Below the pieces are notes generated by a model. The model made no database searches, was not told the origin of the DNA, and saw nothing but the letters and a program-made list of their open reading frames with translations. This document shows positions 60,044-63,994 of a stretch of DNA of 64,000 nucleotides, one piece after another. Location: contig NZ_LMQB01000001.1 of NCBI RefSeq assembly GCF_001424045.1, forward strand, positions 470,083 to 534,082, given 5' to 3'. Each line of letters opens with the position of its first letter. Positions within the stretch are counted from its first letter, which is position 1. The DNA is from Rhizobium sp. Leaf371 (GTDB lineage: Bacteria > Pseudomonadota > Alphaproteobacteria > Rhizobiales > Rhizobiaceae). The translations under genes and the position numbers were made by a program.

Positions 60044-60991
60044 CTAGTCTGGCGCACCCCGCGAGCGCTCGACGACGCTGCGACACCAGGCAGAAAACGC
60101 CTGTACAGCGCGCGCCCGGACCGTGTCGTTCAGAGTGTCGTGGCGTGCGCCCGGATAGATCGTTGCGGTTACCTGCCGCAGGCCCGCTTTCTTCATCCGG
60201 GTTTGCAGCCACGATACGGCTTTTCCATTCTCGGTCGCCGGATCCTCTCCGCCGCCGACAAGGTTGACCGGCATGTCCGGCGGAAGCCGACGGAGACGAT
60301 CCAGCGCCGCACCGGCGTAGCTCAGACGAAACAGTTGGATCCAGAGCGAAACCGTGACGTCGAATCCGCAAAGGGGATCGGCAACATACCGATCGACCTC
60401 TGTCGGGTCGTGGGACAGCCAGTCGAAATCGGTTCTCCGCTCAGCGATCGAGCGCGCCCACGCACCGAAGGTGAGGCGGGCCAGTATCGGGCTCGGCACA
60501 TCCGAGCCTTTCAACATCCGCTCGACCGCAAGAACGCCCTGCCCGAACCGACCGGCGAGGCCCGGATGAAAATTCGCATTCCACACGGCAAGACCGTCAT
60601 AGAGCCCCGGATCTCTTTCCGCGGCATTCAGCGCGACCAACCCGCCCATGGAATGGCCGAAAAGGATGATCGGCAAACCGGGATGATCCGACGCGGCCCG
60701 GTTCCGGACCGCCGCCACATCCTCCAGCACGGCATCGAGACCTCCATCGGGCGCAAATCTCCCCTGAAGATGCGCCGCACTGCGCGTCGCACCATGTCCC
60801 CTGTGATCGTGGACATAGACGGCGAACCCCTGTGCCGCCATCGACACGGCGAAGTTTAGATAGCGCCGCCCATGCTCTGCCACGCCATGATTGACCAGAA
60901 GCAAACCGCGCACCGGTGTCGTTGCCGGCATGTGATAGATCGCGAGATCCGCACCGGACGGGCTGGCCAGCCGCCTCTCCTCGAATGTCAC
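60044..60991 (-). CDS. Alpha/beta hydrolase (lysophospholipase/monoacylglycerol-lipase type)
   Basis: A 315-residue serine hydrolase starting at GTG 60991. The lid-proximal start LLVNHGVAEHGRRYLNFAVSMAAQGFAVYVHDHRGHGATR is diagnostic of PldB-type enzymes. Nucleophile elbow GHSMGGLV, acid in GGGEDPATENG, His in YPGARHDTLND. Length and order fit monoacylglycerol lipase/lysophospholipase. No signal peptide. Confidence 0.9.
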   Translation of the reverse strand: MTFEERRLASPSGADLAIYHMPATTPVRGLLLVNHGVAEHGRRYLNFAVSMAAQGFAVYVHDHRGHGATRSAAHLQGRFAPDGGLDAVLEDVAAVRNRAASDHPGLPIILFGHSMGGLVALNAAERDPGLYDGLAVWNANFHPGLAGRFGQGVLAVERMLKGSDVPSPILARLTFGAWARSIAERRTDFDWLSHDPTEVDRYVADPLCGFDVTVSLWIQLFRLSYAGAALDRLRRLPPDMPVNLVGGGEDPATENGKAVSWLQTRMKKAGLRQVTATIYPGARHDTLNDTVRARAVQAFSAWCRSVVERSRGAPD

Positions 60992-61151
60992 GATCGTCTC
61001 CTCCAGAAGCCATTCCCGCCGCCACTATCCGGGCACAGAACGGAGATGTCAATATGAGCATTCCCTAAAAAATTATGAGCTGTGCACAATTCGTTCTTGC
61101 ATTTATCCTGTTTTAGTCCTTCATTGATCTTGTTTTGTTCTGGAGGTCGAA

Positions 61152-62192
61152 ATGATATCTTTGAGTGTCTGGAGTGCATTTTCCGCGCCGATGCGACTGT
61201 GGCGTTTCCACCGAAACCTGCGTTTCCTCGGGCTATCCTTCTGCGTTTGCCTTGCGTTGGCGTTGGCGTTGCCGGTGGCGGGCTTAGCGGGTGACGTCTA
61301 CGCCGGTGAGGTGACGGCTCCAGCGGCTTCAACGGTACAGAGAGCGCCTCAAGCACTCGCTGCGCCCACGTCCTCCAATCCCGCGGCGTCCTCCAATCCG
61401 CCGACGCCCGCCGATCGCTCTGACCTGACGAGGAGCGAGGATCGCAAGCCCGCGGCAGGACGAACCGGCTCTGTCCTCGGGCTTAGCTGGTTGCCGGCTT
61501 TCTGCGAGACGAAAGCCAAACGCCCGGAATGCTTGGGGCAGACGTCGGAGCGTGCCGATGCACGCGCTTTGACGCTCGTCGGCCTCTGGCCGGTTCGCAA
61601 CAGCTTCTGCAAAGTCTCCGAGGCTCTGCAGGCTCAGGATCGCAAGCGCGATTGGCTGGCGCTGCCTGCGGTGCCGCTTCCGACAGAGCTTGCCGCGAAG
61701 CTTGCTGTCGCCATGCCCGGGGTCGCCTCGGGCCTCGACCGACACATGTGGTTGCGAAGCGGCAGCTGCCAGACCCTCGAGCCTGACGCGTACTTCTCTC
61801 TTCAGGTCCGCCTGCTCGAGGCCGTCAACCGTTCGGCCGTCGGCGCCTTGTTTCGCAGCAAAATCGGTCTGGACGTCACCGAAGCCGAGGTGAGGGCAGC
61901 CTTCGATACGGATTTTGCGGCGGGTGCCGGGGAGCGCGTTCGTCTTCAGTGCCGAAAGGTCGGCGATCGGACGCTTGTGACGGGACTGACGATCGGGCTC
62001 TCCGCAACGATGGACGAAGCATCGGATCTTGCGACGTCGATGCTTGGGGCGGCACCCATCCGCTCGCGCTGCAGTTCCGGTCTGGTCGATGCCGCCGGAT
62101 CGTCACGGCAACTTCGGTCTCGAAACGAGGCGGTGGTCGGGACGGTGGGAACCGGAGCAAGCCGGGCCGGCGCTGCGATCGAGCTTCGTTAG
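61152..62192 (+). CDS. Exported RNase T2 homologue lacking catalytic residues
   Basis: A 346-residue protein. The N-terminus has a hydrophobic signal (LGLSFCVCLALALALPVAGLAG), followed by an Ala/Pro/Ser-rich linker. The RNase T2 fold is recognisable: VLGLSWLPAFCETKAKRPECLGQ, ALTLVGLWPVRN, SGLDRHMWLRSGSC, and LEPDAYFSLQVRLLEAVN with GERVRLQC. However, the first active-site box LTLHGLWP has Val143 in place of His. In the second box, which should be HEWxKHG, Glu is Met199, Lys is Arg202 and His is Ser203, although His198 and Trp200 remain. The enzyme is therefore predicted to be catalytically dead, or to have changed function. Disulfide cysteines are kept. Ribosome site GGAGG. Confidence 0.85.
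   Translation: MISLSVWSAFSAPMRLWRFHRNLRFLGLSFCVCLALALALPVAGLAGDVYAGEVTAPAASTVQRAPQALAAPTSSNPAASSNPPTPADRSDLTRSEDRKPAAGRTGSVLGLSWLPAFCETKAKRPECLGQTSERADARALTLVGLWPVRNSFCKVSEALQAQDRKRDWLALPAVPLPTELAAKLAVAMPGVASGLDRHMWLRSGSCQTLEPDAYFSLQVRLLEAVNRSAVGALFRSKIGLDVTEAEVRAAFDTDFAAGAGERVRLQCRKVGDRTLVTGLTIGLSATMDEASDLATSMLGAAPIRSRCSSGLVDAAGSSRQLRSRNEAVVGTVGTGASRAGAAIELR

Positions 62193-62344: not shown

Positions 62345-63994
<1,650 letters not shown>

Follow-up and report, generated by a model that had tools for sequence, protein, structure and literature searches.

Why would a secreted homologue of RNase T2 that has neither catalytic histidine be maintained, and what might it do instead of cutting RNA? 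The question is raised by a gene, here called T2-A, in the 64,000-nucleotide stretch of the Rhizobium sp. Leaf371 genome that we analysed (the window). A first-pass annotation had described its product as a T2 protein with a degenerate active site and had regarded the loss of catalysis as selected. Comparison with its relatives shows that T2-A belongs to a maintained lineage of predicted pseudoenzymes without catalytic histidines. The same genome has a second T2 gene, T2-B (G000:C12:511278-512075). The features on which the argument turns are, in order along the window:

60044..60991, minus strand: divergent alpha/beta hydrolase gene, a conserved neighbour (open reading frame, regional comparison)
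61126..61140, plus strand: LexA-operator-like site GATC-N7-GTTC, in which 7 of 8 half-site letters fit GTTC-N7-GTTC (matrix score 20.3)
61142..61146, plus strand: GGAGG ribosome-binding site (read directly; similar sequences lie there in relatives)
61152..62192, plus strand: T2-A, gene for a putatively secreted, predicted non-catalytic RNase T2 homologue (open reading frame of 346 residues, Pfam, PDB match, model)
61578..61580, plus strand: codon 143, Val replacing the box I catalytic His (alignment)
61743..61760, plus strand: codons 198-203, HMWLRS replacing HEWxKH, with H198 kept, E199 replaced by M and H203 by S (alignment)
61983..61985, plus strand: codon 278, Gly in this and every other degenerate row (20 of 20), mostly Glu in canonical orthologues (49 of 53) (alignment)
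62345..63994, plus strand: ABC-F type ATPase gene, a conserved downstream neighbour (open reading frame, regional comparison)

By homology and predicted fold, T2-A is a member of the RNase T2 family. An apparent signal peptide (called by eye) is followed by some 50 linker residues rich in Pro, Ala and Ser and then by the RNase T2 domain; the protein scores 29.6 bits against the Pfam model PF00445 (curated cut-off 26), and its top sequence match in the PDB is E. coli RNase I (E 1.2e-15). An AlphaFold2 model of residues 98-325, made with a 75-row alignment, reached a pLDDT of 95.3 and a pTM of 0.91, and the top two Foldseek matches of this model are RNase I structures (E 8.3e-15, TM by query 0.74-0.77), which bears out the earlier claim that the T2 fold is kept. 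RNase I is a periplasmic T2 enzyme with both catalytic histidines, whereas T2-A has neither. At rank 18 Foldseek returned CalsepRRP of Calystegia sepium (PDB 1jy5), an RNase-related plant protein of T2 fold, which we take to be inactive as an RNase and to have a storage role. The cysteines are likewise kept: C118, C127, C153, C206, C267 and C307, all in the domain, are invariant in a 10-row alignment and retained in the 20 degenerate rows, and two further cysteines lie inside the putative signal peptide. What had been called a good signal peptide is, as judged by eye only, a plausible one, with a basic n-region, a hydrophobic core and a cleavage-like site (D-V-x-A-like in relatives), and we infer that the protein is secreted. 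The ribosome site that had been claimed is a GGAGG ending 5 nt ahead of the ATG, and the gene is otherwise intact, there being no stop inside any of the seven matches in the genus. Residues ~46-98 (the low-complexity linker) and 320-346 (the C-terminal tail) are present in the genus and absent from four aligned rows of Sinorhizobium/Pararhizobium type. Outside the Rhizobiaceae clade described below, the canonical T2-A proteins L051, L055, L062, L067, L077 and L104 seem by eye to carry some 90 additional residues as an N-terminal domain ahead of the T2 domain; in L077, the one of these scanned, Pfam finds the T2 domain alone.

The residues that the first-pass annotation had singled out, V143, M199, R202 and S203, are all found at those positions, and H198, the first histidine of box II, is kept. 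Thus T2-A has Val at the catalytic His of box I (CAS-I), and in box II (CAS-II) it has R202 and S203 where an active RNase T2 has Lys followed by His. One of these residues loses its meaning, since Arg at 202, taken earlier as a mark of degeneracy, occurs in 7 of the 53 canonical orthologues. Moreover, many T2-B proteins have Gln where canonical T2-A has E199. Because R202 and Q199 also occur in canonical or T2-B proteins, the decisive changes in T2-A are the loss of H143 and of H203. Of 50 columns conserved to at least 90% in the 53 canonical rows, three (E199, H203 and E278) have changed in every one of the 20 degenerate rows, a set defined by loss of H143 or H203, so that only E199 and E278 are independent of the definition. 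Seven rows belong to neither set: the distant L011, L013 and L015, L232, and L058, L065 and L228, in which the box II Lys is replaced. On these residues, T2-A is very probably non-catalytic.

The loss is not peculiar to one genome. Each of the seven sampled genomes of the genus has one strong T2-A match in which both catalytic histidines are absent, with V (1), A (5) or Q (1) at the box I position and S (6) or N (1) at that of box II. A one-off change or sequencing error is rejected, the loss being common to relatives. The first-pass annotation had looked to orthologues for a check of the catalytic positions: the close ones share the loss, and normal boxes are found in more distant ones only. 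Eighty T2-A rows were aligned, from 76 genomes of a 199-genome family sample and 4 extra genomes of the genus; the T2 genes of G025 and G126 (L233, L234), which match both queries weakly, were excluded from the set. At least one catalytic histidine is missing in 20 of the 80 rows, and on a tree from which the active-site columns were left out these rows all fall inside one 29-row Rhizobiaceae clade, with a minimum of 2 changes. Within it they sit in a 23-row subclade where G060, G090 and G168 keep both histidines; therefore the loss was repeated, or came late in places. H143 is kept in 10 of the 20 rows, Sinorhizobium and Pararhizobium types included, and was lost, with differing replacements, in the window's genus, in G017 and in G081/G162.

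Among the best 80 of 523 named loci, a selection biased towards forms like that of the window, the nearest named relative is Ferranicluibacter rubi (68%), 54 loci are without the box II His, and in 26 the catalytic residues are in place, counting K and R alike at 202. The former include Sinorhizobium meliloti, S. fredii, S. medicae, Ensifer adhaerens and three Pararhizobium; Rhizobium, Martelella and Aureimonas are among the latter. The box II His is absent from every sampled Sinorhizobium/Ensifer and Pararhizobium form; the T2-A of S. meliloti strain 4H41 (L169) has the state HHQRN. The T2-A of L204, a Rhizobiaceae MAG, has N at the box I His and Y at the box II His with K kept, perhaps another route to loss.

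The degenerate gene also occupies the place of the intact one. We take the divergent hydrolase of the window to be lysophospholipase-like (hereafter the lipase gene) and the ABC-F ATPase gene to be ettA. Relatives of the two are each found in 35 of 40 T2-A regions (up to 20 kb), and none of the tested neighbours in 3 of the 40; one region (L129) is cut and has no T2-A, and the automatic choice of reading frames was poor in several (e.g. L119, L120, L147). In the Rhizobiaceae clade, T2-A mostly has the lipase gene directly upstream, on the opposite strand, and ettA directly downstream, in its own orientation; in three regions of the clade ettA is at a distance of 0.9-2.2 kb. In more distant genomes either is sometimes several kb from T2-A. 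Since the order lipase, T2, ettA is shared with Rhizobium, the dead T2-A is the positional orthologue of the intact gene and not an extra copy. No hint to function was seen in the genes that neighbour T2-A.

T2-B, in contrast to T2-A, has its histidines wherever they were read. It is present in all seven genomes of the genus, and among 28 rows with T2-B its boxes were read in 22 genomes (those of Sinorhizobium/Ensifer type being other than S. meliloti), every one of which has both histidines and the lysine. It is also present in all 20 genomes in which T2-A lost a histidine, with intact histidines in the 18 read. Across the 76 sampled genomes with T2-A, a histidine is lost in 16 of the 24 with T2-B versus none of the 52 without it (18 of 24 versus 1 of 52 if loss of the box II Lys is also counted); these counts reduce to 2 changes and 2 independent pairs in either direction, and are not statistical evidence that T2-B is an independent cause of the loss. 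The pattern suggests that redundancy with T2-B was permissive for the loss of histidines from T2-A.

Selection very probably acts on T2-A. For the degenerate rows, the 25 closest pairs have dN/dS ratios (Nei-Gojobori, T2 domain only) of 0.048-0.248, with one genome repeated under two locus ids in some of them; six of the seven closest canonical pairs have 0.07-0.21 and the other 0.48. Against its genus, the T2-A of the window approaches saturation (dS 1.05-1.36, dN 0.19-0.21), and all-pair medians at dS < 1.2 (0.22 for degenerate pairs, n=1,227; 0.49 for canonical pairs, n=1,012) were not used, since the distant pairs are saturated. Pseudogene decay is disfavoured by the close-pair ratios, the intact frames and the retained cysteines. 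Of the proposal that the loss was selected and not decay, one part holds, in that the gene is maintained under purifying selection (dN/dS 0.05-0.25); the other, selection for the loss itself, is one of two readings, as relaxed constraint beside a second T2 gene, with later selection for another role, explains the loss equally well.

The best clue to the function of T2-A is, we think, the LexA-like operator, which ends 11 nt before the ATG, outside the 61152-62192 of the first-pass annotation, and had gone unmentioned there. The alphaproteobacterial LexA box is given as GTTC-N7-GTTC in the excerpts of PMC3323433 and PMC6237742. In 17 genomes, the upstream region of lexA has GTTC-N7-GTTT near the start in 16 and a reverse GTTC-N7-GTTC in all 17, and that of recA has GTAC-N7-GTTC and GTTC-N7-GTT[CT] in all 17. 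Against a matrix made from 68 lexA/recA operator sites (median score 24.9; one poor, at -0.7), the score of 20.3 at T2-A is reached by 0.26% of 1,921 background 400-bp windows, a background that includes the T2-A regions themselves. Upstream of T2-A, 25 of the 29 clade rows score at least 15.1, a level that about 1% of the background windows reach; the remaining four, G004 (a member of the window's genus), G063, G090 and G168, score 10-14. Counted by letters, 24 of the 29 rows have 7-8 of the 8 half-site positions, the exceptions being these four and G098. In the six genus members with the site, it ends 11 nt before the ATG; in the other rows, the first in-frame start lies 2-20 nt from the site, and the one preceded by a ribosome-binding site, as judged by eye, about 15-20 nt from it. 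Of the 51 rows outside the clade, two score at least 15.1, G059 and G149, both on the other strand. These canonical T2-A genes (L061 in G059, L083 in G149) have opposite-strand LexA-like sites of 22.2 and 22.6, perhaps a separate origin of SOS control. Upstream of T2-B, the matrix maximum is 9.4 (25 loci, 22 genomes).

A stringent LexA-like pattern, TGWTCNNNNTTTGTTY, has 7 matches in the genome of the window versus 1 for the reversed control; it was chosen after seeing the T2-A site, and its presence there is not evidence. The evidence for a LexA reading comes from the other six matches, because their neighbours are DNA-repair genes: lexA, uvrA/ssb (the match lying between them), recQ, radA and genes for an AlkZ-like glycosylase and a UvrD/PcrA-like helicase, the AlkZ-like gene sharing its site equally with an ABC ATPase gene on the other side. 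In 20 other genomes there are 153 matches versus 13 for the control, and the T2-A site is among the matches listed in at least 10 of the 20. The variant GATC-N7-GTTC recurs at G000:C12:452280-452295 (L313) and G000:C12:142650-142665 (L312), next to radA and the AlkZ-like gene, with all 16 letters of the radA site the same as at T2-A; these bacteria may accept GATC as an alternative half-site of the operator. LexA-repressed and DNA-damage-induced transcription of T2-A is therefore strongly predicted and, in our estimate, quite probable. T2-A would share with lexA, uvrA/ssb, recQ and radA an operator of the GTTC-N7-GTTC type near the start, at which LexA binding is predicted; unlike the DNA-repair products of this regulon, it encodes a putatively secreted protein. 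T2-A genes whose boxes are intact also have a LexA-like site upstream (G133, G035, G198, G105, G111 and G182), so SOS control would be older than, or independent of, the catalytic loss, and the site does not explain that loss.

The best overall explanation, to which we give an even chance, is that DNA damage induces T2-A, whose product acts in the envelope without catalysis and has its closest counterpart in RnaA of Acinetobacter. DNA damage would release T2-A from LexA repression; the protein would be secreted and folded by its disulfides, and would bind an envelope or RNA partner instead of cutting; it would then serve as a factor in envelope stress or surface regulation comparable to RnaA, leaving RNA degradation and turnover to T2-B with its intact histidines. 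Taken by itself, an envelope or regulatory role is a tentative assignment. RnaA of Acinetobacter baumannii is described, in the portions of PMC10249906 consulted, as a periplasmic RNase T2 homologue that has neither catalytic histidine and works through BfmRS to affect capsule and phage susceptibility. The likeness lies in a secreted T2 homologue (by eye for T2-A) in which both catalytic histidines are absent (PMC10249906, same portions); RnaA has eight cysteines there, whereas the domain of T2-A has six. Its lineage is that of Acinetobacter/Psychrobacter, those portions of PMC10249906 hold no SOS control, and T2-A is likened to it by description, not by sequence. That T2-A is an SOS counterpart of RnaA of independent origin, a dead RNase induced by DNA damage or phage infection to remodel the surface or stress signalling, is rather unlikely. 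According to the excerpt of PMC3400635, replacement of two catalytic histidines by Phe inactivates yeast Rny1, which still inhibits growth; we infer that these are the same two as at the places of V143 and S203. An RNase I structure titled as a mutant (PDB 9iot) differs from the wild type by Phe at two places aligned to V143 and S203.

A rival to this envelope role, and one that takes up an idea of the first-pass annotation, is that T2-A, without cutting, either binds RNA or an oligonucleotide or regulates T2-B, the active paralogue, as a decoy, chaperone or competitor. The retained T2 fold and H198 would suit such a protein, as would the restriction of histidine loss to genomes with T2-B; the few events behind that restriction and the additional loss of E199 and E278 weigh against it, and we consider it doubtful. 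That T2-A is still an enzyme, of altered chemistry or substrate and using H198, R202 and other residues, can draw on the presence of these two residues, on the commonness of Q199 in T2-B and on the H143 of the Sinorhizobium forms. Against this, all 20 degenerate rows are without the box II His and the genus is without the box I His too, which makes such an enzyme highly improbable.

Drift of a redundant copy towards loss, once T2-B had made it dispensable, would account for T2-B accompanying every lost histidine and for the differing replacements of the box I His in several branches. It was already disfavoured by the low dN/dS of close pairs, the frames free of stops in the genus, the six cysteines and many core residues that are fixed and the LexA-like site retained in most clade rows, and we hold it to be scarcely credible. 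The LexA-like site might itself be a conserved leader or promoter of another kind, placing T2-A outside the SOS regulon: it is rich in T and immediately precedes the ribosome-binding site, the genome pattern was chosen with the site in view, and the first half reads GATC, not GTTC. The repair-gene neighbours of the remaining six matches, a lexA operator about 20 nt before its own start and the absence of the site from T2-B all speak against this alternative, which is very unlikely.

The literature searched, with some result lists covered in part only, contained no rhizobial T2 pseudoenzyme and no LexA control of a T2 gene. T2 pseudoenzymes as such are already known. The sole bacterial one met in the literature examined is that of Acinetobacter/Psychrobacter (PMC10249906, in the portions consulted), and the T2-A lineage would be the second. 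It includes S. meliloti and intermediates between intact and dead forms, in genomes that also have a seemingly intact paralogue, and so offers a genetic model in which to test what a non-catalytic T2 fold does. Predicted SOS control supplies a condition under which to seek the function of T2-A and, if true, adds a secreted pseudoenzyme to the DNA-repair regulon. A T2 family protein is also among the genes reported to co-evolve with gene transfer agents in the excerpt of PMC10883770, where LexA appears in the references.
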